30,546 nt of DNA from positions 1-30,546 of IMG/VR virus record IMGVR_UViG_3300046411_001280, one strand, 5' to 3'. The position numbers were made by a program, and so were the translations under genes. How positions within the stretch are numbered: the stretch's first letter is position 1; each line of letters begins with the position of its first letter. Below, one piece after another: positions 2,700-24,999 of this stretch. This stretch comes from a virus. The notes beneath the pieces were generated by a model that worked only from the letters and a program-made list of their open reading frames with translations, did not search any database and was not told the origin of the DNA.

Positions 2700-5600
2700 A
2701 TGGCAAAAATTTCAGAATTACCTCCTATTACCGGTGCTAATACCAGGCCTGAGGATTTATTTGTAATTGTCAACCTGGTTCAAGGTGACGATGGTACGAG
2801 TAACATTACTAGGAAAGAACTGGTTCAAGCTATTCAGTATGAGATTTTTGACCGCATCACAATCACTGGCGGTACAATATCCGGTGTTCAAATGCGAGAC
2901 TCGACTCTCGATAATGTTCGTATTGATAATTCAGATATTGAAGATACTAATTTTCTCAGAGGAACAATCCGAGATACTGAAATCTTTAATTCCACCGCTA
3001 ATAACATTACAATTACTTCATCATCATTTACTGATGGTTCTTTAGTATCTTCAACTGGTGAAGATTTAGCAATTGCAAACTCTTCGTTTACTGATGGCAC
3101 AATCACAGATTCTACTGGTAACAATGTAGTACTTACAAGTTCAGAACTAAATGATAGTACTGCAAACAATGTCGTAATAACAAATTCCGAGTTTAATGAT
3201 GGTACAGGAAATAATGTAACATTAACTAACTCAACTATTGATGATTCTACAATCACTGATAGTACTGCTAATAACGTAACAATTACTCAATCAACATTCG
3301 ACGATGGTGCATTAAGTAATAGCACAGCTAATAATATTACAATGACTTCTTCCACATTTGGAAGTGGTGATATATTTGATAGTACTGCTAATAACGTAAC
3401 AATTACAAATTCTGATTTCTCAGAAGGTACTGGTTCTAATAATACATTTACAGATACAACACTTCTTGGTGGTACTGCAAATGCTGTAATCATTACTAAT
3501 TCTGAATTTAACGATGGTACAGTTAATAACACAATTATTACTTCATCTGAATTTAATGATGGTACTGGAAATAATGTAGTACTGACTAATTCAACCATTG
3601 ATGATTCTACATTTACAGATGGTACAATATCTAATACTGATTTCCAAGGTACAATGCAAGATGTTGTAGCTACCGATATGACAATCAGAAGCTCATCTGC
3701 AGATGGTCTTTCTTCAAATAATTCATCGTTCGATAATGGCACGATGTCAGGGTCAGTATTTGACGGTGGTACAATATCAAACTCTAACCTTGTCGACTTC
3801 GACATGGACATTAATAAAGAGTTTGAAGCACCAATTACAGATGAAACATTCTTTGCTATTAAAAATGAGAAAACTGGTGAAACAGAAAAAATCAATTTTG
3901 CTCAACTTTACGATGAAGTATCTAAGAAAACAGCACAAGCTTTAAAAGTTAATGTAGACGCTGCATCTGGTGACGATAAAAATCCAGGCACAATGCTACA
4001 ACCTGTACAAACATTAGAAAAAGCGTTTGAACTATGTTTAGAAAAAGCAGGTGGTGACTTAAACAGAAACGCAATTAACAACGCAGTTCATATATCAGTT
4101 GGTCCTGGTACATATTATACAAAAGGTAATCTCATGTTACCTGATGATTGTTCATGTACTTCAACAGCTGGTCAGTATGCTACTGTTATCGAATTACTTC
4201 CTGGATATGAAAACAATAACGGAATCTTAGTTGGTTCTGGTTGTTATGTTCAAGGCTTCGGTTATCAGAACTTCCAAGTTGATAACTTTGATTTCCCAGA
4301 GGGTGGATTTGCGATCGCATATCGACCTGGTGCTAAACTATTACGTTCACCTTACTTAAGAGATAGTACTCAGTTATCTAACTTCTTACGACAAGATGTT
4401 GAACCACCTTTAAATCCTTATAACACAAAAGGTACTCTTGCTGACCTAGGTAGAGAGTTTACATTAGCAACTGGACTTACAGGTTCTTGGGCAATGGACG
4501 ATGAGATTGTATTCTCATCTGGTGCTATCGGTTACTTATCTTGGGACGATGCACAAGACGCACTGAAAGGCGTATCTGGTGATATTGCTACTTATCGTAA
4601 AATTAGAGTTCGTAACCTTAAGAATGGTCAAGGATTCGCGGTTGGTGACACAGTAACTTCAGAGTCAGGCGGTGTTGGTGTTATCGAATCAATTGGTATT
4701 GATGACTTCCCGAACAGAGCAGTTGGAAGAGGTGGTGGTTGTGTACTTGCAGACAGAAGAGTACTAGACACAGACTCACTATATACTTACGTATTATGTT
4801 TTGGTTTCACACCTCGTACTCAAAACGGTTTAGGTTATGTTGCTAGAGATGGTGCTGGTGTTAACGGTATTGGTTCTCTATCCATCTTCGTACGATGTGC
4901 ATTCTATGCATTGAATGGTGGACAGATGACTCTGAACAACTCAGGTACTCAGTTCGGTGACATCTCAATGAGAGCAAAAGGTACTACAGAGTTCTTTGCT
5001 CCTAAGTCAACTACTGCAACAATTATTGGTAATACAGCTTTTGCTGATACTATTAATACTCAAGCTGATGATATTATTGACGACATGGTTGTTTACTTAA
5101 CATCCAACACAGCAAACGGTGGATTAGGTTACCAAGAGTATGATTCAGAAAAATGTTTAAGAGATTCAGGTATTGTACTTGACGGAACAGGTTATGACAT
5201 TGCTCTCGATACTAACTATTGGGGAAGACTTGGTGGAATTACATATAGGTCTCCTATCAGTTATGTTGTACCAGGTGAACAATTAGAAGAAACAAAAGGC
5301 GCACTTGAATATCTAAGAGATAGAACAAAAGAGGTATTTGATAGTGGTAATCCAAAAGTTAATGGCCGTATTGATACTTCATTCAGCGAATTACTCAATG
5401 TATTAGAGTATGGCGAAGAAAACATTAACCCAATTATTTGGCAAGATACTTCAGTTGCTCAAACTGCAGCACGTAACTTAATACAAGATAACAGAGATTT
5501 AATTACTAACGAACTTATTGACTGGATTGAAAACAACGGTCAGTTCTATGCATACGACAGTGCAGCATGCAGAAGAGATGTTTCAGACTATATTCTTCCA

Positions 5601-8600
5601 GCTGTTAAAAACGATATGTTGTTTGACACAAACTATAATGCAGTAACTGCAGGTAGAGCTTATTATATGGCTACTGCAAAAACTGTTATGGAAAATCAAA
5701 ACAACGAAACAGTAGCTGCATACAAAAGATTAAAAGACCAAACAAACGAATTAATTGATGGCGATTCTTATCTTGCTTCACAAAGATTAGATGATAGCTT
5801 TGATAATATATTAGAAATCTTAGAAAACAAAGGAACACAGTTTACTCCTACTGCTGCAACTTACGACCCAGAAACTGGGTTATCAGTTATCACACTCGGC
5901 ACTAAGAAAGATTTCACACCATCAGCTGTTGACTATGACCCTGCTACAGGAATTATGACAGCAACTGTTGGTAAACATGCACTAACCACTAAAGACCATA
6001 TCTGGTTTAAACCAGGTGGTATAACATTTAGTTGTGATGCAGGTTCTGGCGTACAAAATCATGCTGTACCTGAATCACATCACCCTTACTATAATAAACC
6101 ATGTCCAATTACTAGTGTAACTTCAAACACTATTACAATGAATGTAGGAGTTGGTGGTCCAACTGGTCAACAAGTACATACCTTCGTATCAGCCGTACCA
6201 AATGCTTTAACATCAGGCCACGGTTTAGGAGTTGGTAGAAAAGTATTATTAAAAACTGGTGGCTTAGTATTTACATGTGACAGAGATAATAATGCATCAC
6301 GAACAGGATATCCAAGAGCTTCTGACCCAGCTGCTGGAACACCGATTGAAGTTATTGGTGCAAATGAAACTAAGATTACAGTTAATGTTGGTAAATCTGC
6401 AATTATAGATGACCATACATTTGTTGAAGCATTAACAAATTCAGTATCAGTATTAGGTGACGACATTCATTATAGTAATGACGTTCCTGCTAATAACGCT
6501 AATGCTAGAAAACAACTTCAGAAGAACAGAGAGTTCTTGCAAGACCTAGTTGAAGGTTATATCAATGATACCTATTTCAGATATGATTCTGATAAGTGTC
6601 AACGTGATATTAAATCTTATATTTTACCTGCTGTTGAAAGAGATATTCTAACAGGTTCAAACTATAATGCAATTCAAACTGGTATTGCATACAGAAGTGG
6701 TACAACACTTGCAGATAATGTTATCAATGAGCAATTGGTAGAAACAACTGGTGCTATTAACGAATTACGAACAAGAGTTAATTTAGACAATACAGAAACT
6801 GGATTCACAGTAACTGGTGCTACTTATGACCCAGCTACTGGAGACTTTACAGCAACTATTGGTACTGGACACGGTTTAGCAATTGGTGATTACATCATGT
6901 TTGCCGATGAAGGTATAACAATGAGTTGTGATATGGGAAGTGGTCAACAGAATCACACATCTCCACAATCACATCACCCATATTGGAGAACACCTTGCCC
7001 AATTACTGGAGTAACTTCAACAACTATTTCTATGAATGTTGGAGATGGTGGAACTGGACAATATCCACATACCTTCGTATCAGCTGTTGCTAATGCTATT
7101 ACTCCTGCTAAAGGAGTTGGTTTAAGCTTTACGCCAACAGATGCTTCATACGACCCAGAAACTGGAAGGTTTGAAGCAACAATCGGTCATCACCATTTAC
7201 AAGTTGGAGATTACGTAAGGTTCTTATCAGGTGGTGTTACATTTAGTTGTGATACAGGAAGTGGAGTTCAGAATGACTCAGTACCTGCTGTAGGGCATCC
7301 TTATTATAATCACCCTTGCCCAGTTCATTCAGTAACTGGAACATCCATCGTAATGTATGTTGGAACGGGTGGTACTAATCCTCATACCTTTGTATCTGCA
7401 TTAGATAACTCAATTATAGAAATGAGAGCAATTGATGAAAATGCTTCTGGATTTAGAAGTAACGAATCATTCGATAAAATTGTTTCTATTGTTAATAGTT
7501 CAAATAAAACTTACTCTACAAGTAATGCTACTTATGACCCAGTAACTGGTTTAACAGTACTTACAGTTGGTTCTCACGATTTACAAATCGGCGATGAGAT
7601 AATGCTTGCTCCTAATAGCTTGACATTTACTTGTGCTACTGATGGTAATGTTTCACAACATACTTATCCAACAACAACGATTACAAACTTTACACCTACT
7701 GGTGCTACTTATGACCCAGCAACTGGTGTATTCACTGCAGAAATTGGTAGTCATAAATTACAAATTGGTGATGAAATTGAAATCGCACCTAACAGTATTG
7801 TATTTACTTGTGCACTTGATGGTAACCAAGTACAACATCCTGCGCCAGAACCACATCACCCATTCTATAAGAAGAAGATTAAGTTAACTGCAGTTACAGC
7901 AACAGGAATTGAATGTAATGTTGGAGCTGTAGCAAATGGCGGTGGAGCACATACGTTTGAATCTGCAATCACAAATGCTATACAAGGTGAAAGAAAGCAT
8001 CCTGCATACAAGAAAGCTGTAGTAGTTGCTGCTAAGACAGACACAACAATAACAATGAATGTTGGTACATCAACTGATACATCTACACATACATTCGTAT
8101 CGGCAACTGCAGATAATGTTAAATCTGCTAAGTATGTTTCAACATATACACCTAGAACAGCTACTTATGACCCAGCAACTGGAGTCTTCGTAGCAACTAT
8201 CGGTCAACACAATTTAGTAGCCGGTGATTATGTATCTATCGCACCTGAAAGCGTAGTGTTTACTTGTGCAATGGATGGTAATAGTTACGAACATGCTGTT
8301 CCACAAGGACATCACCCATTCTATAAAGTACCAGTAATGTTATCTAGCGTTACTGCTGATACAATAACAATGAATGTTGGTACTGGACCTGGTGGAGCTC
8401 ATACATTTGTAAGTGCTCAAGTTGGAGCTATTGATTCTGATGCGTTAGTATTTACTGACCCAGCATCCTATGTTAAACATTACACACCAACAACAGCTAC
8501 TTACGACCCAGCAACTGGTGTTTCAGTTATTACTATGCCAGGGCATGATTTAACAACTGATGACTATATTGAGTTTACTCCTTATAGCTTCACTTATACA

Positions 8601-11600
8601 TGTGCTCAAGATGGTAACGCTACTGAACATTCATATCCAAGAAAAGGAGATAGCAACTACAGAACTCCAATGGCAATTACAAATATTGCTGGTGATGATA
8701 TTACTGTTCAACTTGTTGTATCTTCTGGTGGTGCTCATACATTTGTAAGTGTTGAAAAAGACGCTGTATCTAAAGTTACTTATAACTCTCAAGGTCAATA
8801 TGCTAGAGAGCAATTACAAACTAATAAAGATTACTTAGCTAAGAAAGTATCTGCTTACTTAGATTCACAATACTTCGTATTTGATGGAGTAAAATGTTCT
8901 AGAGATTCTGGATTTATTTTAGATTCTGTAAGACGTGATATTGCAACTGGTTCTACTTGGAATTCTCAATTTATGGGATTAGGCTACAGAACTGGTTCTG
9001 TAGGAGCTACTGAAGTAATCACTGAACAATTAACAGAAACTGTTGCTGCAATTAACTTCCTTAAAGGAAAGGTTGCTGCAGACCCAAGTGTTACAGGAAC
9101 TGCATTAACTCGTTCTAACCAACACTTTGATAAAATTATTGATATCATGCAAAACGGTGCTGCTAACACGGGTACTAAATCTTACGGTGCAGATGCTGCG
9201 GTAACAATTAATCATAAAGAAGCAACAGATACATTATTATCCAATAGAGCATTTATTATTGCTGAAACTACTGCATATATTGCAGACCAATATCCATCAC
9301 TAACATATGATGTTGCATCTTGTGAAAGAGATACTGGTTATTTAGTTGACTCATTAATTCAAGATGTTAGATTTGGTGGTAACACATGTTCAGTTAACTT
9401 CGCAAGACTTTACTTTGAAAATGCTGTATCAGTATTAGCTGAAGACCAGAAAGTACCAACATATAAAACTTGGGAACATATTGCTGAAATTGCATATAAG
9501 ATTGTTAGAAACATTACAATTACTCCTACAACAGGAAATGCAGTATCACAAGTAACTGGTGCTGATAGAGGTATTGAAGTTGCTAATGCTGCAAGAGATG
9601 CTATTAACATTGTAACTCAAGTAATTAGTGATGATACTTTAGATTACTTACCTAAGTACATTGAACCTAATGTTGAAGCTGCTATGGCTTCTGCTGTTGC
9701 TGCAATTGATGGTATAACAGAAAATCTATCAGAAGCAGTAATTGATTACCTTAGAGATGAACATAACGGATTACCATATACTAAATCAGTTTGTGAAAGA
9801 GATGTCGGCCTTATGGTTGATGCTATATCTCGTGATATCGAATATGGTGGTAATGAGAATACATTGGAAGTGTTTGATTACTACTTCAGAAGATTCGATT
9901 CTCAATCAGCTGATTACGAACAACAGCGTTCAGTTAACGTATTACCACTTGAAGTAAAAGGTCAGTTCAGAAGATTATCAGATTATGAAGATAATGCTAA
10001 TGTATCTGGTTTAAGAGAAGCGATCAACGTTCTTCCATACGAACAACGTAAACCAACAAAACAAGCATTTACAGTTCTTGCTGATAATGCTGCTGAAATT
10101 GTTGCACAAATTGGTAACGGTATTGTAGGAACTCAATATACTCCAACTAATGCTACTTATGACCCAGCAACTGGTGTATTCACTGCAACGATTGGTTCTC
10201 ATAACCTTGTTGAAGGTGACAGTATTTGGTTGAAGCCAGAAGGATTTGTATTCTCTTGTGATATGGGTGGCGGTGTCGCTAACCATACTTCACCTCAGGC
10301 TCATCACCCATTCTATAATAAACCAGTAATTATTACGAACACAACACCTACTGTTATAACAATGAATGTTGGTGGCGGTGGTTCTGGTCAGTATCCACAT
10401 ACATTTGTTTCTGCTGATGCAAATTCAATTAGTGATGGTCCTTATCAAATTACTGATGGTACTGCTGCTTCAGTATCAACAGGTACTGCTGTACATGACC
10501 TCATTCAAACTATTGCAGACTTAATTGATGATACTAATATTGAAACATCTCAATTACCAACATTAACTAAAGCATCGTTTGACCCGAACAGAACACTAGC
10601 AAGAAAGAACATCCAACGTAACAGAGAATTTATTATCGAAGAATTACAAGGATACTTGCAAGACAGATATTATGTCTTCGATGGTGACAAGTGTAAAGCT
10701 GACTTAGGATTTATTCTTGATGCTGTTAAAACTGATGTACTAACAGGTTCTAATTATAATTCTGTATACGCAGGACTTGCTTATAATATTGGAACTACAA
10801 ACACAACTAGAGTATTAACAGAACAATTAACAGAAACAATTTCTGGTATTAATTATGCTAAGAATCTTGTGCTTGAAGCTGTAACTGATGATGCTGCAAA
10901 ATTAAGAGTAGAATCTAGCTTTAACGAAATCATAGACATTATGACTAATGGTAGAGGAGCAGCTGATGCTATTAACTTTACAACTAACGCAGCTAATGTT
11001 AATCGACTTAATGCATCACAACAATTACAAAATAACAAAGTATTCTTACAAGCTGAAATAACTGCTTGGTTGGCTGCAAACAGACCTTCACATACTTACG
11101 ATGTAGCAAAATGTGAAAGAGATACTGGTTACATGATTGATGCTATCTCGTTTGACGCACAACATCGTGGAAACTTTGGTACTATTAACTTTGCTAAATT
11201 ATATTTTGAAAATGCAATATTAGTTGGACTACCTCAAGACCAGGTTGAACCAACTGCTGCTGCATATATTCACTTAGGTGATTGTGCTGATTTAATTGTA
11301 CAAGACCAAGATATTGGTGGATTAAAATCAGCAGGAAATGGCGAAACACAAAATATAAGTTCAGGCTCTGCAGGAGCTGCGATTGGTGCTGAAGTTGAAG
11401 GATTATTTGATATTGTTGCTAATGCAATTACTAACAATACAATGTTATTAAGTCCTCCAGTTCAATTCCCAACACTTGGAAACTATGACGATGCAAATCA
11501 ATCTGCATTTGGTGAAATTGAAGCTGTCAAATCAACTGCACAATCTGGTGTACTAAAACACTTATCACAACAATTTGAAGTACTTCCTTATAGTGAAGCG

Positions 11601-13910
11601 AAGTGCAGAAGAGATACTGGATATATTGTTGATGCTGTTGCTCACGATATTCAATATGGTGGTAATGCAGCTACGGTACAAACTGCTGGAATGTATTTTG
11701 AAAATGCAGTTAATACTGGATTACAAATCGAACAAAGAATGGGAACAAGAGATGCATTCTTACACATGGCAAAAATCATTGAACACGTTGCTGGTGGTAA
11801 AGACATTGAAACTAAGATGTTCCCAAGAACAGGAAAATACTATACTGGTGATATCGTAACTAAATACGAATACTGGAATGGAGTAACTTCTTATCAGTCA
11901 ACAGAAGCTCAAGACATGCAAGTACATGGTGCAAATCCAAATACTTGTATAGCTGCAAGAAAACTTGTAGAGATTGTTGCTAACGCGGTTGATGATTCTA
12001 ATGAGGTTAGAAATACAATCCCTGATCGCATTGATGTTAACCAAACTTGGATGGGTGATAACTTTATCACTGCTAAAGAGATAATGGAAAGTCAATCTCA
12101 AGTATTAGGTCATGCAGTAATTAGTTACTTATCACATACACATAACGGATTATCATTTAGAGATGCTAAGTGTAGAAGAGATATTGGATTCTTAATTGAT
12201 GCAGCATCTCACGACATTAATAATCAGACTAACTTTGCAATGCGTCAAGCTGCAGGAATTTACTTCGAAAATGGAGTATCAGTACTACCTATTGACACAA
12301 GAGTACAGACTGCTAATATTTACCAATTCCTCGGAGATGCGGTTGAACAAGTTGTACAAGAGATTGCAGTAACTAACGCAGTTAATTACACATTAACTCC
12401 ACAGAATACTGCAGGAACTGCTGCTACAGCAACTGAAGGCGCAAGGGTACATGAATTAATTGGATACATTGAAAATGTTATTATAGCAAATGATGTAGAC
12501 GAACTACCTGCTCCAGAGTCAACCGGTACTCAATCTGCTGAATTAGTAACAGCTGCACAAAGTATTGTTGATGAAACTGAAGAGCTTGCATCTGATGTAA
12601 CACAATTTATTAATAGTAACTTTGATGTACTTGATTATAACAAAGCGAAGTGCAGAAGAGATACTGGTTACTTACTCGACGCGTTTAGCTTCGACTTAAA
12701 CTTTGGTGGAAACACTGCTTCAAGATGGAATGCAGATTTCTACTTCTGGAATTCAGTTTACAGATTACCAGAAGACCAGAGAATACCAACTGCAAAATCT
12801 TATAGACATCTAGGCAGAATTTGTAAAGACATCGTATTAGGTGAATACGCAAATCAAGTAGTAATTGGTGAAGTAGCAACTTCAGTTGAAAGCTTGAAAG
12901 TTGAAGAATTAGCAAATATATTCTACAACACTCAACTGTATAATGATACTAAGTACTTACCAGTTAAGACTGAGCCAGATTACGCATATTCTTCATCAAT
13001 ATTTACTGATGCACAAGCTGTAATAGCTCAAAGAAGAAAGCAATTACAGAAAGATACTGTAAGATTTGTTAATTCAGAATACAACTTCATTGATATTAAT
13101 CTATCAAGGCGTGATGCTAGAAACTTACTCACAGCAGTTTATAATGACTTTGCTTATGATAAGTTTGACCCAGATGTTCCAGTACCAACATACAGTGATA
13201 ATGGTTCACAGAATGCTGTAAGAACATACACTGCATCATTCTTTGACTATGATGGTACTCATGTATTCCCAGTATTTAACCCAACAAGACAAGGATTAAA
13301 ATACAAAGGTTCAGTTGCTCAATTATCTGATTTATCATCGATAACTGGAATGAAACCAAACTGGTCATACATTGTTGCTACTGATTACTCAACTAACTTC
13401 TACGCTGGTAATATATACTACTGGAACGGCTCGACTTGGGTATTAGATGGAGTCAACAATACTGACCTTCTAGATGCATTTACTGGAGCTTGGGACAGAA
13501 TGAGAGATTATATTGTTAATAATATATCTCCTAACTCAGAACATAGCTTAATGGTTGAAGGTTTATTTAATGACTGTCTAAAAGATAACATATTAAGACC
13601 TCAAACGTTAATATTTGGAGCCTTGGTTGAATCCATTGCTCACCAGTTTAACGGTGCTTCTGCAGGTGTTAACAGAAACGCGTTACCGCTTAACTTCAGA
13701 AACTTAGGTGCTGCTATTTCAGCGGTTGCTTCGGTACTCAACGAAGACGGTGGTAGAATACGATGGTCGGGTGCTGATGAATTGAATAACCAGTACTTCG
13801 CAAGAGGATTGAGGATTAATGGTCGAACAGGACGAATTGAAGGTAGACCGTTTACATCATCTGTAAGAAAACTTGCAAGAAGAGCTTCAAACTCAAGAGC
13901 ATCATTATAA
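2700..13910 (+). CDS. Giant 3736-aa modular virion protein (beta-helix plus CxRD repeat array)
   Basis: One uninterrupted frame. Residues 1-53: attachment-like start (MAKISELPPITGANTRPEDL). Residues 54-365: about 13 short repeats of NNVTITNSxFxDGT type, probably a beta-helix. Residues 418-800: begins NVDAASGDDKNPGT, the usual entry of pectin-lyase-like phage spikes, and is probably a second beta-helix. Residues 800-3480: eleven modules centred on Cys-x-x-Asp (Cys 819, 957, 1300, 2066, 2208, 2365, 2665, 2805, 2969, 3158, 3318) with YDPxTG beta modules inserted in their loops. Residues 3490-3736: C-terminal region with ALVESIAHQFNGASAG and a basic last 20 residues. There is no catalytic motif or signal peptide I recognise. 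The AAAGGGA site and the preceding TAAATA support the ATG at 2700. It may be a long tail fibre, a decoration or a tape-like rod; tape measure is less likely given the beta content. The role is inferred. Confidence 0.85.
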   Translation: MAKISELPPITGANTRPEDLFVIVNLVQGDDGTSNITRKELVQAIQYEIFDRITITGGTISGVQMRDSTLDNVRIDNSDIEDTNFLRGTIRDTEIFNSTANNITITSSSFTDGSLVSSTGEDLAIANSSFTDGTITDSTGNNVVLTSSELNDSTANNVVITNSEFNDGTGNNVTLTNSTIDDSTITDSTANNVTITQSTFDDGALSNSTANNITMTSSTFGSGDIFDSTANNVTITNSDFSEGTGSNNTFTDTTLLGGTANAVIITNSEFNDGTVNNTIITSSEFNDGTGNNVVLTNSTIDDSTFTDGTISNTDFQGTMQDVVATDMTIRSSSADGLSSNNSSFDNGTMSGSVFDGGTISNSNLVDFDMDINKEFEAPITDETFFAIKNEKTGETEKINFAQLYDEVSKKTAQALKVNVDAASGDDKNPGTMLQPVQTLEKAFELCLEKAGGDLNRNAINNAVHISVGPGTYYTKGNLMLPDDCSCTSTAGQYATVIELLPGYENNNGILVGSGCYVQGFGYQNFQVDNFDFPEGGFAIAYRPGAKLLRSPYLRDSTQLSNFLRQDVEPPLNPYNTKGTLADLGREFTLATGLTGSWAMDDEIVFSSGAIGYLSWDDAQDALKGVSGDIATYRKIRVRNLKNGQGFAVGDTVTSESGGVGVIESIGIDDFPNRAVGRGGGCVLADRRVLDTDSLYTYVLCFGFTPRTQNGLGYVARDGAGVNGIGSLSIFVRCAFYALNGGQMTLNNSGTQFGDISMRAKGTTEFFAPKSTTATIIGNTAFADTINTQADDIIDDMVVYLTSNTANGGLGYQEYDSEKCLRDSGIVLDGTGYDIALDTNYWGRLGGITYRSPISYVVPGEQLEETKGALEYLRDRTKEVFDSGNPKVNGRIDTSFSELLNVLEYGEENINPIIWQDTSVAQTAARNLIQDNRDLITNELIDWIENNGQFYAYDSAACRRDVSDYILPAVKNDMLFDTNYNAVTAGRAYYMATAKTVMENQNNETVAAYKRLKDQTNELIDGDSYLASQRLDDSFDNILEILENKGTQFTPTAATYDPETGLSVITLGTKKDFTPSAVDYDPATGIMTATVGKHALTTKDHIWFKPGGITFSCDAGSGVQNHAVPESHHPYYNKPCPITSVTSNTITMNVGVGGPTGQQVHTFVSAVPNALTSGHGLGVGRKVLLKTGGLVFTCDRDNNASRTGYPRASDPAAGTPIEVIGANETKITVNVGKSAIIDDHTFVEALTNSVSVLGDDIHYSNDVPANNANARKQLQKNREFLQDLVEGYINDTYFRYDSDKCQRDIKSYILPAVERDILTGSNYNAIQTGIAYRSGTTLADNVINEQLVETTGAINELRTRVNLDNTETGFTVTGATYDPATGDFTATIGTGHGLAIGDYIMFADEGITMSCDMGSGQQNHTSPQSHHPYWRTPCPITGVTSTTISMNVGDGGTGQYPHTFVSAVANAITPAKGVGLSFTPTDASYDPETGRFEATIGHHHLQVGDYVRFLSGGVTFSCDTGSGVQNDSVPAVGHPYYNHPCPVHSVTGTSIVMYVGTGGTNPHTFVSALDNSIIEMRAIDENASGFRSNESFDKIVSIVNSSNKTYSTSNATYDPVTGLTVLTVGSHDLQIGDEIMLAPNSLTFTCATDGNVSQHTYPTTTITNFTPTGATYDPATGVFTAEIGSHKLQIGDEIEIAPNSIVFTCALDGNQVQHPAPEPHHPFYKKKIKLTAVTATGIECNVGAVANGGGAHTFESAITNAIQGERKHPAYKKAVVVAAKTDTTITMNVGTSTDTSTHTFVSATADNVKSAKYVSTYTPRTATYDPATGVFVATIGQHNLVAGDYVSIAPESVVFTCAMDGNSYEHAVPQGHHPFYKVPVMLSSVTADTITMNVGTGPGGAHTFVSAQVGAIDSDALVFTDPASYVKHYTPTTATYDPATGVSVITMPGHDLTTDDYIEFTPYSFTYTCAQDGNATEHSYPRKGDSNYRTPMAITNIAGDDITVQLVVSSGGAHTFVSVEKDAVSKVTYNSQGQYAREQLQTNKDYLAKKVSAYLDSQYFVFDGVKCSRDSGFILDSVRRDIATGSTWNSQFMGLGYRTGSVGATEVITEQLTETVAAINFLKGKVAADPSVTGTALTRSNQHFDKIIDIMQNGAANTGTKSYGADAAVTINHKEATDTLLSNRAFIIAETTAYIADQYPSLTYDVASCERDTGYLVDSLIQDVRFGGNTCSVNFARLYFENAVSVLAEDQKVPTYKTWEHIAEIAYKIVRNITITPTTGNAVSQVTGADRGIEVANAARDAINIVTQVISDDTLDYLPKYIEPNVEAAMASAVAAIDGITENLSEAVIDYLRDEHNGLPYTKSVCERDVGLMVDAISRDIEYGGNENTLEVFDYYFRRFDSQSADYEQQRSVNVLPLEVKGQFRRLSDYEDNANVSGLREAINVLPYEQRKPTKQAFTVLADNAAEIVAQIGNGIVGTQYTPTNATYDPATGVFTATIGSHNLVEGDSIWLKPEGFVFSCDMGGGVANHTSPQAHHPFYNKPVIITNTTPTVITMNVGGGGSGQYPHTFVSADANSISDGPYQITDGTAASVSTGTAVHDLIQTIADLIDDTNIETSQLPTLTKASFDPNRTLARKNIQRNREFIIEELQGYLQDRYYVFDGDKCKADLGFILDAVKTDVLTGSNYNSVYAGLAYNIGTTNTTRVLTEQLTETISGINYAKNLVLEAVTDDAAKLRVESSFNEIIDIMTNGRGAADAINFTTNAANVNRLNASQQLQNNKVFLQAEITAWLAANRPSHTYDVAKCERDTGYMIDAISFDAQHRGNFGTINFAKLYFENAILVGLPQDQVEPTAAAYIHLGDCADLIVQDQDIGGLKSAGNGETQNISSGSAGAAIGAEVEGLFDIVANAITNNTMLLSPPVQFPTLGNYDDANQSAFGEIEAVKSTAQSGVLKHLSQQFEVLPYSEAKCRRDTGYIVDAVAHDIQYGGNAATVQTAGMYFENAVNTGLQIEQRMGTRDAFLHMAKIIEHVAGGKDIETKMFPRTGKYYTGDIVTKYEYWNGVTSYQSTEAQDMQVHGANPNTCIAARKLVEIVANAVDDSNEVRNTIPDRIDVNQTWMGDNFITAKEIMESQSQVLGHAVISYLSHTHNGLSFRDAKCRRDIGFLIDAASHDINNQTNFAMRQAAGIYFENGVSVLPIDTRVQTANIYQFLGDAVEQVVQEIAVTNAVNYTLTPQNTAGTAATATEGARVHELIGYIENVIIANDVDELPAPESTGTQSAELVTAAQSIVDETEELASDVTQFINSNFDVLDYNKAKCRRDTGYLLDAFSFDLNFGGNTASRWNADFYFWNSVYRLPEDQRIPTAKSYRHLGRICKDIVLGEYANQVVIGEVATSVESLKVEELANIFYNTQLYNDTKYLPVKTEPDYAYSSSIFTDAQAVIAQRRKQLQKDTVRFVNSEYNFIDINLSRRDARNLLTAVYNDFAYDKFDPDVPVPTYSDNGSQNAVRTYTASFFDYDGTHVFPVFNPTRQGLKYKGSVAQLSDLSSITGMKPNWSYIVATDYSTNFYAGNIYYWNGSTWVLDGVNNTDLLDAFTGAWDRMRDYIVNNISPNSEHSLMVEGLFNDCLKDNILRPQTLIFGALVESIAHQFNGASAGVNRNALPLNFRNLGAAISAVASVLNEDGGRIRWSGADELNNQYFARGLRINGRTGRIEGRPFTSSVRKLARRASNSRASL
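2859..3794 (+). repeat. N-terminal NNVTITNS-type protein repeats (beta-helix-like)
   Basis: About 13 degenerate units of 20-25 residues, each with a hydrophobic strand flanked by Asn/Thr/Ser and a DGT turn, reminiscent of pentapeptide or right-handed beta-helix repeats. At DNA level a 30-base identity recurs at 3257-3286 and 3377-3406 (120 bases apart). The EFNDGTGNNV..LTNSTIDDST unit recurs 360 bases apart (near 3190 and 3550), suggesting a 120-base higher-order period. Confidence 0.75.
3951..5100 (+). other. Pectin-lyase-like (beta-helix) region of the giant protein
   Basis: Codons 418 to about 800. The opening NVDAASGDDKNPGT followed by PVQTLEKAFELC and ISVGPGTYY is the classic lead-in of single-stranded right-handed beta-helix phage proteins (DNA-G-pT-P-f-kTi-A type). 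The region is Gly-rich with regular short strands (RCAFYALNGG, MTLNNSGTQFGD). No polysaccharide-lyase active site is recognisable, so it may bind rather than cut. Confidence 0.55.
5835..6446 (+). repeat. YDPxTG beta-module block 1 (one stub, one full, one degenerate)
   Basis: A stub (YDPETG at residue 1055) is followed directly by a full module (YDPATG at 1079, FSCDAGSG, ESHHPYYNKPC, TITMNVGVGG, HTFVSA). A copy lacking the YDP strand follows (GHGLGVGRKVLL, FTCDRDNN, DDHTFVEA). The block sits between two CxRD modules. Confidence 0.8.
6801..7416 (+). repeat. YDPxTG beta-module block 2 (two copies)
   Basis: Two full modules (YDP at residues 1376 and 1484), each with an SCD strand, a Cys/His stretch (QSHHPYWRTPC; AVGHPYYNHPC), an NVG or YVG strand and HTFVSA. 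The block interrupts a CxRD type I module between its INELRTRV helix and its ESFDKIVSIVN helix. Confidence 0.8.
7509..8769 (+). repeat. YDPxTG beta-module block 3 (four copies)
   Basis: Four YDPxTG starts at residues 1612 (truncated copy), 1671, 1823 and 1935. They carry FTCALDGN, EPHHPFYKKKI; FTCAMDGN, QGHHPFYKVPV; and a divergent last copy (YTCAQDGN, YPRKGDSNYRTP). An extra TITMNVG...HTFVSA half-module follows the second copy. Confidence 0.8.
10131..10430 (+). repeat. YDPxTG beta-module block 4 (single copy)
   Basis: YDPATG at residue 2487, then FSCDMGGG, QAHHPFYNKPV, TMNVGGGGSG and HTFVSA. It lies in the loop after the AAEIVAQ helix of a type II CxRD module. Confidence 0.8.
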
Positions 13911-14418: not shown

Positions 14419-17400
14419 ATGTCCCAATTTGGAACAATCACAGGAAAAAGTCAGCTAATAGGGTTTGGTAATCCACAACCGTTTCCTATTACATTAGATG
14501 TTGTCTTCTATGAAGGCTCTGTCGTATATGCTGATAATAATAAGGTTTATTACTCCAACGGAACAAATTGGATAGAGATTGGGGCTGGACCTCAAGGAAT
14601 CCAGGGTGCTACGGGTATCCAAGGAACACAAGGTCTACAAGGTGATTACGGACCTGGTTTTACAATTATCGGTTCTGTTGCAGATGTTGACTCAGGTGGT
14701 GACCCACAAGCTACATTAAACGGAGCATTCGGTTCTGCTAATGTTGGCGAAGGTGTTATTGATGAAGCTGATGATGAATTGTGGATTTATGTAGGTTCAA
14801 GCACTTGGGTAAATATTGGTAACTTTAGAGGTGTTCAAGGTTTCCAAGGACCAACCGGTTTTCAAGGTATTCAAGGTCCATTAGGTAATGAAGGTATCCA
14901 GGGCGAAAGAGGATTTAGAGGTTTCCAAGGAGAAGCTGGACCACAGGGTACACAAGGTGTTCAAGGTGATTTAGGTATTCAAGGTATTCAAGGCCGAAGA
15001 GGACCACAAGGTGTTCAAGGCGTACAGGGTGATTTGGGTATTCAAGGTACTCAAGGAAGCATAGGACCTCAAGGAATTCAAGGCACAACTGGTATCCAAG
15101 GCGATACTGGTATTCAAGGTTTACAAGGTTATAACGGTGATGATACTGGTCATGTTGTAGAGTTTAGAGTTGCCGAACCTATTGTAGAGTCAGACCCTGG
15201 TGTAGGTAATCTAATTCTTAATAGTACAAACAGCCCAACAGATAATTTCTCATCTGTTACTAAAATGTGGATTGATAATGAAGCATTTTACAGTGTAAAT
15301 TTAGAAGGTTTATACACACTTATTTCTCAGTCAACTGGTGCCAACAGAGGATTTATGAAAATCACTCTACGTGGTGGCCCAGACCATTACATGATTTTCT
15401 CAATACAAGATGCTGTTGACCAAACAGGTTATTGGGAATTTGATATAACATACGTATCAGGTACTGGAACACGTGGTGACTTTGTTTTAGAAAATACTCC
15501 AACACCAGGCACAACAACTACTTTACCAACTATAGTTGCATTTAGCTTATCTGGTGATAAAGGTATACAAGGTGTTCAAGGCTTACTAGGTAATCAAGGA
15601 GCTCAAGGAGTTCAAGGCCTTCAAGGTCCAATAGGTCCACAGGGAGTTCAAGGCACAACCGGTAGTCAAGGCGTTCAAGGCCTCCAAGGGTTATTAGGGC
15701 CTCAAGGAGTTCAAGGGCCACAAGGACTACAAGGTATCCAAGGACCTCAAGGATTACAAGGAAATACTGGTGATTTTGGTGGTATTTCATACAATTACGA
15801 TTATAGTAACGATACAACAGATGCTGACCCAGGTTCTGGTAACTTACGATTCAGCTCAACAAATTTCACATCAGCAAACTTAAAACTTTGGATTGACGAC
15901 GAAGATAACGGTGCAGTCAATGTAATGGACGGACTTCTTACTGAACTTGATGCACTTACAGGTTCTCCAAAAGGTTACGTTAGGTTTATTGATGCAACAG
16001 ATTATACAAGACAATTCCTAGCTCGTATTGACTTAATTACAGATAGTACTGGTTATTGGGAACTTGGAGTTACAAGACTTAACGGTGCAACATCATTTAC
16101 AGATGGTGACAATTTAAGAGTAACATTCTCAAGAAACGGTGATAGAGGTTTACAAGGAGTTCAAGGTACTCAAGGTCTAATAGGTTTCCAAGGTATTCAA
16201 GGCGTACAAGGTATTCAAGGCCAACAAGGTACTACTGGTATTCAAGGTTCACAAGGTATTCAAGGTATCCAAGGTGAAGCTATTCAAGGTTCACAGGGTA
16301 CTCAAGGTATTACAGGTTCTCAAGGATTACAAGGACTTCAAGGATTACAGGGCGACACTGGTGGACAAGGTACACAAGGTGTTCAAGGTACTACTGGTAT
16401 TCAAGGTTTACAAGGATTACAAGGTGAGCAAGGACAATACGGTGGTTTAACATTCCCTTGGAACTTTGTTAATAATACTTTAGGTGGAACAGACCCAGGC
16501 ACAAACAATTTTAAATTCAATAATTCTAACCCAACACTTGCTACATTAATTACAATTGATGATGTTCCTGTTGACCAATTTGGCCAAGAAGTAGATAATT
16601 TCTTTGACTTTATTGCTGGACAACCAGGTACAGTTAAAGGTTATCTGAAAATACAAGAAGGTAATTACGAAGACGGTTCCGGTCCTGCTGGACACCATTG
16701 GTTAATTTATGAAATTACTGGTTGGACATGGGATAGTGGTTCAAAGAATTATGGTTATTGGGATGTTACTTGGGTAGATGGTAATGTTACTAATTGGCAA
16801 TCTTCTGTTAACGCAGTACATGGTCCAACTACTTTAATTACATTTGTTCCAAGAGGTCCTGCAGGTATTCAAGGTGCTCAGGGAACTCAAGGATTACAAG
16901 GACTTCAAGGTAGAATTGGTCAAGGTATACAAGGACCTCAAGGTACACAAGGAACAGGTGGACTTCAAGGTACTACTGGTTCATTCGGTGGTGTAACATT
17001 TGATTATACATACGACGCAACAACAACAAACAGTGACCCAGGTACTGGTGGATTAAGAATTAATAATAGCACATTATCATCTGGTACAGCAATGTACATT
17101 GATAATCGTGACGATAACTTTATTGATATTTCTACATTCTTAGCAACCATTGATGATTCTACATCTCCTATTAAAGGTCACTTCAAGATTACGAAGGTTG
17201 GTTCACCTGAAATATTCCATCTATATACAATTAGTTCAGCTACACCAATTGGTGGTTATTTCAATGTAGCTTGTGTTCATGTAGATGGTAATGGCGGATT
17301 AACAGACGGCGATGATATTACAGTAACATTCGCAAGAACTGGTGATGCCGGTGCAACGGGTGCAACTGGACCACAAGGTGTTCAAGGAGTTCAAGGTACA

Positions 17401-19800
17401 CAAGGTGATACTGGTATCCAAGGAACAACTGGAGCTGGTGCCCAAGGTGCAACAGGAGCTATTGGTCCTCAAGGTACACAAGGTGTTCAAGGTATTGTTG
17501 GTGCAACTGGTACTGGAGTTCAAGGCTTACAAGGTACTCAAGGTATTCAAGGTGATTTAGGATTACAAGGATTACAAGGAGCTACTGGAGCTGGTGAAGC
17601 TGGTTCTCAAGGTACTGTTGGTACACAAGGTATCCAAGGTGTTCAAGGTTTACAAGGTATTGCTGGAACGGGTGGTATCGGTGGACAAGGTACACAAGGT
17701 ATTCAAGGCGTTCAAGGTTCTGACGGACCTCAAGGTTTACAAGGTGGAGATGGTGGCGAAGGTCAACCAGGCCCAGAAGGTTCACAAGGTATTCAAGGTA
17801 CAACAGGAGCTGGTACACAGGGTGTTCAAGGTCCTCAAGGTGCTGATGGATTTGGTATACAGGGTCCTTCAGGTGATGGTACTCAAGGTATTCAAGGCCC
17901 AGGTGGCCCTCAAGGTTTAGGCGGTTCGGGCCCACAAGGTACTCAAGGTGTTCAAGGTTTCCAAGGTACTCTTGGTGCACAGGGCTCTGGCGGAACAGGA
18001 CCACAAGGTGTTCAAGGCCCAGAAGGCCCAGATGGTGGTTCTGGTACTCAAGGTGCTACGGGTGAAGGTATACAAGGTGTACAAGGACCTCAAGGTATTG
18101 ATGGAGCAGTAGGTTTTGGTACTCAAGGTCTTCAAGGTTTCCAAGGTATTCAAGGTGAAGCTATACAAGGTGCCGAAGGCGCAGGTATACAAGGACCAAC
18201 TGGTATTCAAGGTATTCAAGGTAATGAGGGTGCAGGTTCTGCTGGTCCTCAAGGTCCTCAAGGTGATTTAGGTATTCAAGGCGCACAAGGACCATTTGGT
18301 CCACAAGGTGTTGCTGGTGCAACTAGTGCACAGGGTGATACTGGTATTCAAGGTAACCAAGGTTTACAAGGTTTTGACGGAGGCGGTGGTTTCCAAGGTA
18401 TCCAAGGTGGTACTGGTGTACAAGGACCTCAAGGTTTAGACGGTGGTTCAGGTGGTGAAGGTATTCAAGGGCCAGAAGGTCCTCAAGGTTCATCAGGTTT
18501 CCAAGGCGGAATCGGCCCAGCTGGTACAGGCTCTCAGGGTTCATCTGGTCCTCAAGGTGATACTGGACCGGGTGGTCAAGGTCCAGCGGGACCTCAAGGT
18601 CCTGCAGGTTCAGAAGTTGGTCCTCAAGGTTCAAACGGTTTCCAAGGTCCTGCTGGTCCATTAGGTCCACAAGGAACGACAGGTGCTGGTGGTGTTGGTA
18701 TACAAGGACAACAAGGTACATCAGGTCAAGCTGGTGCTCAAGGAACGACTGGTGATACTGGTGCTCAAGGTACTGCAGGAAGTAGCACAGGGATGGATGT
18801 TTCATCTCTACACACTTCTGGTTTACAAGGTACAGCAATGTTCCTCACCATGGTACAAGGTGGTAGTGGTGTAAGACCTTTATATGGTACAACTACTCCA
18901 AACCCAGGTGGTGAACAAAACTTCTTCTATACAGCTAATGATGATGAGCTAACACTAGAAAATATTAAAATTGATGGTTCAGCAACACTTAACGGTTCAA
19001 CGATTACATCATGGCCAACAGGTGGTGGCGGCAGTGCGATTACTATACAAGACGAAGGTTCATCATTAGCAACAGCTGCAACTACAATAGACTTTGTGGG
19101 TGGTGGTGTTACTGCTTCTGGTACAGGAACTACTAAGACAATTACGATCGCAGGTGGTTCATCTCAAAACGTATTCCAAAATATGGCGGTAAGTGGTCAA
19201 ACTACAGTTGCTGCAGATACTGCTACTGATACGTTAACCTTCGTAGCTGGTACTAATATGACTATTACTACTGATGCTACAACTGATAGTATTACGTTTA
19301 ATGCTTCAGGTAGCGGTGGCAGTGGTATTAGTAATGTTGTCGAAGATACAACTCCTCAGTTAGGTGGTAATTTAGACGGACAATCATATAATATTACAAC
19401 AACTGGTGATATTACAGCTGCTAACTTTAATACAACATCTGATGAGTCACTCAAAACAAATGTAGAAACAATTGAAAATGCATTAAGTAAAGTTATTAAC
19501 ATGCGTGGTGTTAACTTTAATTGGACAGAAAATAGTCAACCAGGTACTGGTGTAATTGCTCAAGAAATGGCAGAAGTACTTCCACATGTTGTTACAGAAA
19601 ACGATGAAGGAATTAAACATGTACAATATGGTAACATTGTAGGTACATTAATTGAAGCGATCAAAGAACAACAAAGAGAAATAGAAGAATTAAAAGATTT
19701 AGCACATCCACCAAGAGGTTTAATGGACCTAGATGGTAGCAACGAACTAATTGATTTAATAACTGATATCAATGCGAGATTAGACAAGCTAGAGGGTTAA
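14419..19800 (+). CDS. Collagen-like tail fibre (1793 aa) with C-terminal S74 chaperone
   Basis: Residues 1-54: attachment-like head (QLIGFGNPQPFPITLDVVFY, VYYSNGTNWIEIG). Residues 55-1457: six blocks of Gly-x-y triplets, strongly biased to GIQG, GVQG, GTQG and GPQG, broken by five globular inserts. The first is an ELWIYVGSSTWVNIG type at 14659-14829 and the other four are related to one another. Residues 1460-1670: beta segments such as ITIQDEGSSLATAAT and EDTTPQLGGNLDG, usual in marine phage fibre tips. Residues 1674-1793: S74 domain (SDESLKTN, GVNFNW, GVIAQEMAEVLPHVV, coiled-coil end), predicted to cut before S1674. It should form a trimeric rod. Pro is scarce and Gln dominates the third triplet position, so stability cannot rest on hydroxyproline. 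Most likely a receptor-binding fibre. The 169-aa gene begins right after its stop. Confidence 0.92.
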   Translation: MSQFGTITGKSQLIGFGNPQPFPITLDVVFYEGSVVYADNNKVYYSNGTNWIEIGAGPQGIQGATGIQGTQGLQGDYGPGFTIIGSVADVDSGGDPQATLNGAFGSANVGEGVIDEADDELWIYVGSSTWVNIGNFRGVQGFQGPTGFQGIQGPLGNEGIQGERGFRGFQGEAGPQGTQGVQGDLGIQGIQGRRGPQGVQGVQGDLGIQGTQGSIGPQGIQGTTGIQGDTGIQGLQGYNGDDTGHVVEFRVAEPIVESDPGVGNLILNSTNSPTDNFSSVTKMWIDNEAFYSVNLEGLYTLISQSTGANRGFMKITLRGGPDHYMIFSIQDAVDQTGYWEFDITYVSGTGTRGDFVLENTPTPGTTTTLPTIVAFSLSGDKGIQGVQGLLGNQGAQGVQGLQGPIGPQGVQGTTGSQGVQGLQGLLGPQGVQGPQGLQGIQGPQGLQGNTGDFGGISYNYDYSNDTTDADPGSGNLRFSSTNFTSANLKLWIDDEDNGAVNVMDGLLTELDALTGSPKGYVRFIDATDYTRQFLARIDLITDSTGYWELGVTRLNGATSFTDGDNLRVTFSRNGDRGLQGVQGTQGLIGFQGIQGVQGIQGQQGTTGIQGSQGIQGIQGEAIQGSQGTQGITGSQGLQGLQGLQGDTGGQGTQGVQGTTGIQGLQGLQGEQGQYGGLTFPWNFVNNTLGGTDPGTNNFKFNNSNPTLATLITIDDVPVDQFGQEVDNFFDFIAGQPGTVKGYLKIQEGNYEDGSGPAGHHWLIYEITGWTWDSGSKNYGYWDVTWVDGNVTNWQSSVNAVHGPTTLITFVPRGPAGIQGAQGTQGLQGLQGRIGQGIQGPQGTQGTGGLQGTTGSFGGVTFDYTYDATTTNSDPGTGGLRINNSTLSSGTAMYIDNRDDNFIDISTFLATIDDSTSPIKGHFKITKVGSPEIFHLYTISSATPIGGYFNVACVHVDGNGGLTDGDDITVTFARTGDAGATGATGPQGVQGVQGTQGDTGIQGTTGAGAQGATGAIGPQGTQGVQGIVGATGTGVQGLQGTQGIQGDLGLQGLQGATGAGEAGSQGTVGTQGIQGVQGLQGIAGTGGIGGQGTQGIQGVQGSDGPQGLQGGDGGEGQPGPEGSQGIQGTTGAGTQGVQGPQGADGFGIQGPSGDGTQGIQGPGGPQGLGGSGPQGTQGVQGFQGTLGAQGSGGTGPQGVQGPEGPDGGSGTQGATGEGIQGVQGPQGIDGAVGFGTQGLQGFQGIQGEAIQGAEGAGIQGPTGIQGIQGNEGAGSAGPQGPQGDLGIQGAQGPFGPQGVAGATSAQGDTGIQGNQGLQGFDGGGGFQGIQGGTGVQGPQGLDGGSGGEGIQGPEGPQGSSGFQGGIGPAGTGSQGSSGPQGDTGPGGQGPAGPQGPAGSEVGPQGSNGFQGPAGPLGPQGTTGAGGVGIQGQQGTSGQAGAQGTTGDTGAQGTAGSSTGMDVSSLHTSGLQGTAMFLTMVQGGSGVRPLYGTTTPNPGGEQNFFYTANDDELTLENIKIDGSATLNGSTITSWPTGGGGSAITIQDEGSSLATAATTIDFVGGGVTASGTGTTKTITIAGGSSQNVFQNMAVSGQTTVAADTATDTLTFVAGTNMTITTDATTDSITFNASGSGGSGISNVVEDTTPQLGGNLDGQSYNITTTGDITAANFNTTSDESLKTNVETIENALSKVINMRGVNFNWTENSQPGTGVIAQEMAEVLPHVVTENDEGIKHVQYGNIVGTLIEAIKEQQREIEELKDLAHPPRGLMDLDGSNELIDLITDINARLDKLEG
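14581..18789 (+). repeat. Collagen-like Gly-x-y blocks
   Basis: Triplet blocks at about 14581-14658, 14830-15150, 15553-15780, 16138-16440, 16855-16986 and 17341-18789. The last is about 480 residues long. DNA is dominated by variants of ggtattcaaggt and caaggtgttcaa. The last block contains repeated one-residue phase shifts (GAGAQG, GTGVQG, GAGTQG, GEGIQG). Confidence 0.9.
15151..17340 (+). repeat. Four paralogous globular inserts in the collagen-like fibre
   Basis: Inserts at 15151-15552, 15781-16137, 16441-16854 and 16987-17340 (about 118-138 residues each). They share DPGxGNLxxNxS, an ID(D/N) strand, KGYxK, a GYWE/GYWD strand and a TFxRxGDxG exit into the next collagen block. Confidence 0.8.
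19438..19797 (+). other. S74 intramolecular chaperone domain of the collagen-like fibre
   Basis: Codons 1674-1793. S1674-D1675 starts the SDESLKTN motif. The domain keeps GVIAQEMAEVLPHVV and a terminal coiled coil. It is longer (about 120 residues) than the copy in the 361-aa fibre because of an added LAHPPRGLMDLDGSNELID segment. Confidence 0.85.
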
Positions 19801-20365: not shown

Positions 20366-20704
20366 ATGGCATCAAGAGCAAACATATACATAGACAAAGG
20401 AACTGACTTCAGAACAGCTATTGAGTTGTTTAATGATGAGGGTGCAGAGTATTCTGACGCAGTAATCGATGTTTATAACTTTTATTCAAGTATACGAAAA
20501 GTTTACTCTAGTACTAGTGTCGCGGACTTTACAATCGAAAAAGCCAACAACGACATCACTCTAGTTCTGACAGACCAGCAAACAGATTTGCTGAAACCTG
20601 GTAAATATCAATACGACGTAATCATGCAAAAACAAACAGGAGAGTTGTCCAAAATAGTTGAAGGCTTAGCAATTGTAGTCGATACTATTACGGAGGTTGC
20701 GTGA
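20366..20704 (+). CDS. Small virion structural protein
   Basis: 112 residues beginning [15 protein letters not shown]. The order of a short N-terminal strand, a Tyr/Ser-rich [15 protein letters not shown] segment, a [12 protein letters not shown] stretch and a [10 protein letters not shown] strand is typical of a small beta-sandwich protein that recurs in structural operons of marine T4-like phages (recalled, not searched). It somewhat resembles baseplate upper (BppU) N-terminal domains, which anchor receptor-binding proteins. Its TGA overlaps the GTG start of the 1432-aa fibre (GTGA), and GGAGG at 20692-20696 inside this gene serves that fibre. The pair is therefore translated together and this protein may be an adaptor for the fibre. 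Confident as a gene, moderate on role. Confidence 0.78.
20692..20696 (+). promoter_or_regulatory. Ribosome binding site fixing the GTG start of the 1432-aa fibre
   Basis: GGAGG four bases before GTG at 20701, inside the 3' end of the upstream gene. It is the strongest Shine-Dalgarno in the window and supports the unusual GTG start and the four-base overlap. Confidence 0.75.
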
Positions 20705-23700: not shown

Positions 23701-24999
23701 GTTACTAAAGCTGCTAATACTTACAATTTAGATTTACTTCAAGATAATAATAGAGCTGCAATTGAGATTGGTACTGCTCTTACAATTGAAACATACGATA
23801 CTGGAAACAATGTTGTACAAATTGGATTAGACCCAGTATGGCAATCCTTTACAGGTTTAAGAGAAGCTGGTGTTGAAGGCACTGTTCCAAACTTTGAATT
23901 TGACGTTTATGGTCGTGTTCGTTCTCTTGTTAATATTCCACTTTCTGTATCGTCAAACGCGGTTGTTGACTTTGTTCCATCCATCTATGGTGTTATTGAA
24001 GACGCTGTAAGAAATGGTAATATCGAACGTGGTATTAGAGTAACATCAAATAATGCTGCGCAGAAACTTGATTTTGTAACGAACCCATTTGATATTACAT
24101 TAGTTGGAGCTGTGACTGGTAATGGCACAGTACAAAATAACTCAAATGTTTCAATTACAACATCATACGATTTAGTTACACTTGACCAAAGATTCTTAAA
24201 TGTACAAGGTGGAGATACAGCAAACGGTGCATTAGGTGCCACAAGATTTGAAGATAAAGAAGATACAGATTACTTTGTTGAACCAGCTGCAACTTCAAGA
24301 TTAGCTGACTTACATATAGGTTATAATAAACCAAGTACTACATTAACATTTGGTACTGGTGCTTCAAATATGTACATGTATGCTCAAGGGACCAAACTTG
24401 GTTTCTTAAGTAGCTCATTCAACTTTGGTACTTATTTCAATACAGTAAATAATAGTTGGTATGCTGAAGATGGTTCCATGTTCTCAAGGAACTTTATTGA
24501 TAGTCAAGATGTAAACTATCTACTCAATCCTGCTGGATACAATTCTCGTATTAAAGGATTAAATGTTGATGGTCAAGTAGTTATTGGTAGTAATCTATCA
24601 TTTAGTAATAATTCTATTAGTAACTCTAGTGGGGATATTACTATATCACCTATTGGTAATTTGATTGTCGATAACAATATTATAACACAATTAGCTGACC
24701 CTGTCAACCCCCAAGATGCAATTAATAAGAGGTTTTTACAATCAGAGTTAGATAGTATAAGTGCAAGTGGTATTCAGCTTGCTGCTGAGACTGGAACTAT
24801 AGATACAGTTGCTCTCGGTGAAACAATTACTTTTGCTGCTGGTGAAGGAATAAATACAACTGTTGCAAATAATCAAATAACAATTGCTAGTGAATTGGCG
24901 AGTGACTCCAATATTGGTGCTGCTTCGTTTAACATAGCAAACTTTACAGTTACAAGTGGTGATGTAGCCCTCACAACACTTGATGGAGGAACCTTTTAA
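20701..24999 (+). CDS. Repetitive tail fibre protein (1432 aa)
   Basis: GTG start with a strong GGAGG. Residues 1-70: basic head. Residues about 72-110: an IGHADTS...DTFGHITDF unit also found twice in the next gene. Residues 165-430: five near-perfect 54-residue repeats with core [23 protein letters not shown] and [13 protein letters not shown] (written here in parts). Four more divergent copies follow to about residue 800. A large segment ([46 protein letters not shown]) occurs twice, 376 residues apart. The C-terminal part has FxDxxDxxYxxxPA fibre motifs (near 24250 and 24495). It ends with a [19 protein letters not shown] tail typical of marine phage fibres. It lacks an S74 domain, so it needs another trimerisation route. 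Confidence 0.85.
21199..21966 (+). repeat. 162-bp (54-aa) tandem repeats, five copies
   Basis: The GRI/GRV codon triplet falls at 21211, 21373, 21535, 21697 and 21859, exactly 162 bases apart each time. Protein identity is high while third codon positions vary freely. Confidence 0.9.
21943..23550 (+). repeat. Internal duplication, two copies 1128 bases apart
   Basis: The segment starting near [21 protein letters not shown] (D codons at 22009 and 23137) runs about 160 residues in both copies, through SxxLG, AERPT/ADRPT, GMxRxNxxDxxFEGY and DVDxDTxIxAEDxPGSDND. Confidence 0.8.

Follow-up and report, generated by a model that had tools for sequence, protein, structure and literature searches.

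What is built by a giant viral structural protein in which helical units and β modules are combined, and where do the modules enter? The question is raised by the window, a 30.5-kb (30,546 nucleotides) contig of an uncultured virus, whose numbering is used for all positions below. The window contains an open reading frame (ORF) for a protein of 3736 residues, which profile searches assign to families of giant structural and tail-fibre proteins in T4-like phages (PHROG 701, virion structural, E 3e-131; PHROG 5342, tail fiber, E 1e-128). We consider it probable that its helical units, marked by Cys-x-Arg-Asp (CxRD), form a rod of phycobiliprotein-like domains with exchangeable, branching β-barrels, the modules marked by YDPxTG, which probably contact the host surface.

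A unit profile finds 11 CxRD units in the protein, and nine YDPxTG motifs lie at nucleotides 5862-10158, just where a sequence-only reading of the window had placed them. The YDPxTG module is ca. 99 residues long. The same reading had proposed that modules enter specific loops of the helical units, so all 11 units of the protein were aligned with the modules masked. As can be seen from this alignment, the modules enter at just two sites of the CxRD unit. At the outer site, past the last helix, block 1 (unit of Cys957) and block 3 (unit of Cys1300) both follow alignment column 217; at the inner loop, between the last two helices, block 2 (unit of Cys1300) enters at column 187 and block 4 (unit of Cys2365) at column 185. 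Blocks 1 and 4 had both been assigned to the end of the last helix, which is correct for block 1 but not for block 4. The unit of Cys2066 has no insertion, as described earlier, and the unit of Cys1300 does carry a pair of modules and a set of four, except that within this set the second module interrupts the first.

Since there are only ca. six inter-helix loops per unit, four blocks falling in two loops is not very improbable by chance alone, and it is therefore the comparison of homologues, not the coincidence of columns, that bears the weight. In 33 homologous ORFs from virus contigs, a comparison that the sequence-only reading had suggested as a check, modules were present at these four places only. 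Blocks 2 and 4 are true insertions because the inner loop lies within one unit. The outer site of blocks 1 and 3 falls between consecutive units, where in-line modules are possible. Thus, the picture of a rod with swappable side domains is borne out as far as fixed loops and presence or absence in relatives are concerned, but placement at the side is not established for all modules.

Two features were missing from that picture, the nesting of modules within modules and the relationship of the rod unit to phycobiliproteins. In blocks 1 and 3 of the window, a complete module interrupts another one, which gives a nesting depth of 2. The order of module profile states is 1-23, a complete module and 22-99 in block 1, and 2-56, a complete module and 55-98 in block 3. 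An uninterrupted block-1 host module, without the inner module, was found in five relatives (L019, L025, L026, L033 and L037), with 79-92% identity to the joined halves versus 33-39% to the inner module, and the DNA flanks are continuous across the empty site. At block 3, L041 has an uninterrupted module with 55% identity to the joined halves and 52% to the inner module; since these values barely separate host from inner module, orthology there rests on the flanks. L009, which is identical to the window across the 3736-residue protein, was not counted as independent evidence.

The complementarity of the halves was also assessed without a grammar, using triples of fragment, full module and fragment. 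The second fragment resumed no more than five positions from the break in 86 of 90 triples, against 24.8 expected and a maximum of 41 in 10,000 shuffles; after collapse, 22 of 25 resumed near the break, against 7.3 expected. Random truncation of modules is ruled out by this complementarity and by the empty sites in relatives. Two further origins were considered and rejected: transposon-like insertion, as no target-site duplication is apparent at the block-1 junctions, and recent duplication of one module inside the window, as the modules are merely 59-72% identical in DNA.

The inserts come and go at fixed sites in relatives. On a tree built from the backbone without inserts, the inner block-1 module and the number of block-2 modules had each changed at least 6 times, block 4 at least 3 times and the inner block-3 module at least once, counts that may be inflated by recombination. 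The block 4 module is absent in L026, L036, L037 and L041.

The β module is also present in Kyanoviridae isolates, and nests were parsed with a context-free grammar that permits complete modules inside modules. Balanced nests reached depth 4 in S-H9-2, Sf-FR1 and Sf-CH1b and depth 3 in S-SSM4 and ACG-2014g, and eleven modules in residues 4613-5762 of P-SSM4 gp7 were parsed as one tree of depth 5. Recursive insertion within one family, with an interrupted host and complementary halves, thus extends to at least three levels in isolates (depth 4-5). In virus contigs, the parse covered 261 modules in 81 clusters and returned 58 nested trees of depth 2-6, depth 6 being reached in one contig. Break positions cluster at states 19-28, 54-57, 70-74 and 81-88, between predicted strands, and the YDPxTG turn itself never serves as a break site. 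A depth-4 nest with breaks at 85, 85 and 73 recurs as a cassette of ca. 415 residues in L103, L112, L113, L123, L128 and L129, and is repeated up to five times within one protein of 4770 residues.

Residues 915-1369 of the window protein were modelled with AlphaFold. The model is confident for the nested barrels only, and both the outer and the inner barrel are predicted to fold with confidence. The outer module (model residues 130-339, ca. 103 of which were skipped) aligns as one barrel with EF-Tu domain 2 and riboflavin synthase at Z 5-6. Single barrels are matched by the inner module (model residues 155-259; Z ca. 7), among them the phi92 endosialidase barrel with a root-mean-square deviation (rmsd) of 2.1. 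For the endosialidase barrels of phi92 (4hiz) and endoNF (3gvj) together, the rmsd is 2.1-2.2 over 77-82 residues (Z 7.2-7.7). The depth-4 nest was modelled at a predicted local distance difference test (pLDDT) value of 82.8 and a predicted template modelling (TM) score, pTM, of 0.71, and this model was matched by other predicted cyanophage proteins (ACG-2014d, TM 0.62, rmsd 3.7). A whole-chain Foldseek search of the nest against the PDB returned mainly fibronectin-type strings with TM 0.1-0.15 and was uninformative. No significant match of the module sequence was found in PDB, Pfam or NCBIfam.

The relationship of the rod unit to phycobiliproteins was approached from a weak and unexpected phycocyanin match. 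The unit profile aligned with phycocyanin alpha at 93% probability, the unit Cys being placed on the bilin-binding Cys84, while reversed and shuffled controls gave ≤0.8%. Decoy families reached ≤1.3% against the window-clade profile, with the exception of one genuinely related small phage protein. The global mode of hhalign was discarded since it produced one-column artefacts with very small P-values. When 739,330 residues of viral ORFs were searched with a phycobiliprotein profile, CxRD units ranked top, the best one at 20 bits versus ≤7.3 bits for reversed sequences. Homologous units of phage S-WAM2, in which the bilin-site CxRD is retained, scored 27.8 and ca. 22.2 bits against Pfam Phycobilisome PF00502 (cut-off 22.2), and phycobiliproteins made up 20 of 23 PDB matches of the S-WAM2 unit, in one register. 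The window-clade unit profile in turn matched the PF00502-passing S-WAM2 unit with an independent E-value of 2e-13. PF00502 matches were confined to giant structural ORFs in six of six whole phage genomes, and in the relative G001 the C-terminal half of the profile (117-155) gave a separate match. The bilin-site motif, in the register of Cys84, is kept in 216 window-clade units (Cys 100%, Arg 98%, Asp 100%). The rod units thus share with phycobiliproteins a two-helix core and the CxRD motif at the bilin-attachment position, and differ from them in being tandem domains in a virus, with an extra invariant Asp and a nearly invariant Asn. We conclude that the rod units are likely homologous to phycobiliproteins. 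For isolate units, these sequence comparisons give direct and strong support; for window units, the assignment is well supported through their homology to the former. A small phage protein, encoded by ORFs of ca. 286 residues in L091, L127 and L136 (MADVFVPLNAFKSVV... type), is related to the helical unit (hhalign 93.7% over 141 columns) but stands alone and has no CxRD.

Several observations speak against a phycobiliprotein-like rod with branching barrels. Window-clade units alone reach just 70-80% hhalign probability to phycobiliproteins, the best window unit has an E-value of 0.064 in PF00502, below the cut-off, and the match spans mainly two helices (ca. 57 columns). The Z-scores of the barrels are <8, a level common among unrelated folds, and the helical parts of the AlphaFold model have pLDDT <50. 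The shortness of the aligned part and the sub-threshold window units, together with the small signal given by beta subunits alone (2.5%), would be expected if the likeness reflected convergence on a short C-x-R-D-x-G-Y helix motif. We find this rather unlikely, as it accounts neither for an S-WAM2 unit above a curated cut-off with PDB matches in a single register, nor for the gap between the best unit and reversed sequences, the failure of all decoys other than a true phage homologue, and the separate C-terminal match in G001.

The absence of confident geometry in the model and the position of blocks 1 and 3 between consecutive helical units would also suit modules that act as in-line spacers and set fibre length in the manner of a ruler, rather than as side decorations. 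This is unlikely too, given that blocks 2 and 4 lie inside a unit, that a nested copy is a branch on a barrel and not an in-line link, and that module numbers vary freely among close relatives. A reading of the partial modules as tandem copies that have degenerated or been truncated, instead of halves of an interrupted domain, is very improbable. Complete tandem modules do exist (block 2 and the end of block 3), and divergence among modules is strong; the halves, however, are complementary within a few residues, far above chance, the host module is uninterrupted in relatives, and both halves model as a single barrel. An artefact of assembly or misprediction might be suspected in one metagenomic contig of an uncultured virus, more so as the ORF of L029 is broken by a stop, but the same architecture is repeated in tens of independent contigs and in sequenced isolates, which makes such an artefact hardly conceivable.

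According to the reading that we prefer, the protein would be a long tail-fibre-like component in whose helical section 11 phycobiliprotein-like (globin-fold) domains follow one another in tandem. Barrels of ca. 99 residues are inserted at two recurrent sites of this domain and also in four loops of their own fold. With ends that presumably lie close together, a barrel could enter a loop while its host stays folded, and could then host the next copy in turn. In this way, a branched assembly of barrels would arise, able to grow, to shrink and to be exchanged, presumably by recombination. The barrels may be exposed and touch the host surface, probably its glycans, and their gain and loss would tune adsorption. 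Judged from the family of the protein, its exposed loops and the turnover of modules, the most likely function is adhesive or protective, as a surface-exposed decoration on a tail component whose make-up changes as barrels are gained and lost.

One can also imagine that phycobiliprotein domains were captured by marine T4-like phages, became part of the tail apparatus and continue to bind a tetrapyrrole at Cys-x-Arg-Asp, which we consider quite improbable. If this were true, a CpeT-type lyase encoded nearby in cyanophages would load bilin on the fibre, and the adsorption organelle would be pigmented or light-sensitive. In 5 of 14 isolate records (L049, L054, L055, L061 and L063), a gene for a CpeT-like protein (phycobiliprotein lyase) lies upstream of the giant fibre gene, no more than a few genes away. 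Neither psbA nor CpeT was found in the near relative G001 (169,742 bases, completeness not given), the capsid protein of which is nearest to those of Melnitz (Methylophilales) and Sinorhizobium phages (66-67%). Because of this capsid affinity and the lack of both genes, the host of the window virus may be non-cyanobacterial, and a role of bilin in the window's clade is therefore weakened.

Recursive self-insertion is known from Si3 of the cyanobacterial RNA polymerase beta-prime subunit, where HABAS/barrel-sandwich hybrid domains are inserted recursively, up to six levels (PMC11515920, PMC13114784). In Si3 and in the phage protein alike, a small β domain is put repeatedly into its own copies, a likeness of arrangement. 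Si3 is a lineage-specific insertion in a cellular enzyme, whereas the phage protein belongs to a viral tail and shows presence-absence variation between close relatives. The phage module, for its part, is predicted to form a barrel like those of EF-Tu domain 2 and riboflavin synthase; RNA polymerase is absent among the structural matches listed for the module, which excludes no HABAS homology. The endosialidase barrels are similar in size to the module, but the Z-scores are <8, there is no sequence match, and no enzyme domain was recognised in the window protein. Giant virion proteins of T4-like cyanophages (PHROG 701, 5342, 18802 and 4527), gp7 or "short tail fiber" of Kyanoviridae, are of the same family and have the same modules and units, whereas the window's clade has an arrangement of its own. 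Nesting and phycobiliprotein-like units are absent from those annotations of these cyanophage proteins that were examined here. We found no report of nested domains in phage fibres or viruses, or of phycobiliprotein-like fibre units, in the open-access literature, which is weak evidence of absence; the viral case of recursive self-insertion thus appears undescribed there.

In marine T4-like phages, very large proteins are annotated merely as "structural protein" or gp7, and these results explain part of them at the level of sequence. Possible members of the family are very large hypothetical proteins of phage S-PM2d (ORFs 081, 088 and 218), which mutated late in a Synechococcus-phage coexistence experiment (PMC9910659). 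Recursive insertion would make a protein branch without new genes, and would offer viruses a route to branched and re-equipped fibres. Close relatives are set apart by entire modules at fixed sites, so that how each module affects adsorption can be tested directly. If confirmed, the use of a phycobiliprotein-related fold as a building block of viral fibres would bear on the origin of such domains. The coordinates of all features are collected in Table 1.

Table 1. Features of the giant tail protein in the window.
Feature	Position	Strand	Basis
Giant tail/structural protein, 3736 residues (rod and inserts)	2700..13910	+	ORF; PHROG matches
Pentapeptide-repeat-like N-terminal region	2877..3809 (approximate extent)	+	Pfam Pentapeptide_4, E 1.9e-12
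Helical unit 1 (Cys819)	5031..5336	+	unit profile
Helical unit 2 (Cys957), host of block 1 after its last helix	5454..5753	+	unit profile, masked alignment
Block 1 outer module, N part, states 1-23	5838..5906	+	module profile, grammar parse
Block 1 inner complete module, nested in outer after state 22	5910..6215	+	module profile, grammar parse
Block 1 outer module, C part, states 22-99	6216..6446	+	module profile, grammar parse
Helical unit 3 (Cys1300), host of blocks 2 and 3	6489..6782	+	unit profile
Block 2 first module, loop between last two helices of unit 3	6804..7103	+	module profile, masked alignment
Block 2 second module (relatives carry 0, 1 or 2)	7125..7418	+	module profile, homologues
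Block 3 outer module, N part, states 2-56	7509..7676	+	module profile, grammar parse
Block 3 inner complete module, entering the outer one after state 54-56	7686..7982	+	module profile, grammar parse
Block 3 outer module, C part, states 55-98	7989..8120	+	module profile, grammar parse
Block 3 third module	8142..8432	+	module profile
Block 3 fourth module	8478..8768	+	module profile
Helical unit 4 (Cys2066), without insert	8790..9077	+	unit profile, masked alignment
Helical unit 5 (Cys2208)	9207..9506	+	unit profile
Helical unit 6 (Cys2365), host of block 4	9678..9983	+	unit profile
Block 4 module, between last two helices of unit 6	10134..10430	+	module profile, masked alignment
Helical unit 7 (Cys2665)	10584..10880	+	unit profile
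Helical unit 8 (Cys2805)	10998..11300	+	unit profile
Helical unit 9 (Cys2969)	11490..11789	+	unit profile
Short insert KYYTGDIVTKYEYWNGVTSY..., unrelated to YDPxTG module, at inner loop of unit 9	11790..11903 (approximate)	+	masked alignment
Helical unit 10 (Cys3158)	12057..12356	+	unit profile
Helical unit 11 (Cys3318)	12537..12836	+	unit profile

In the relative L029, the stop divides the giant ORF into 5571-11390 and a second ORF at 11646-13904, the result of a frameshift, a real split or an assembly error. The giant gene of the window is part of a run of tail-fibre genes that comprises a short S74-type fibre, the 3736-residue protein, a collagen-like fibre of 1793 residues and others. The collagen-like (GxxGxQG) fibre, at 14419-19800, has an S74-type chaperone region at its end, and a fibre built with repeated units is located at 20701-24999.

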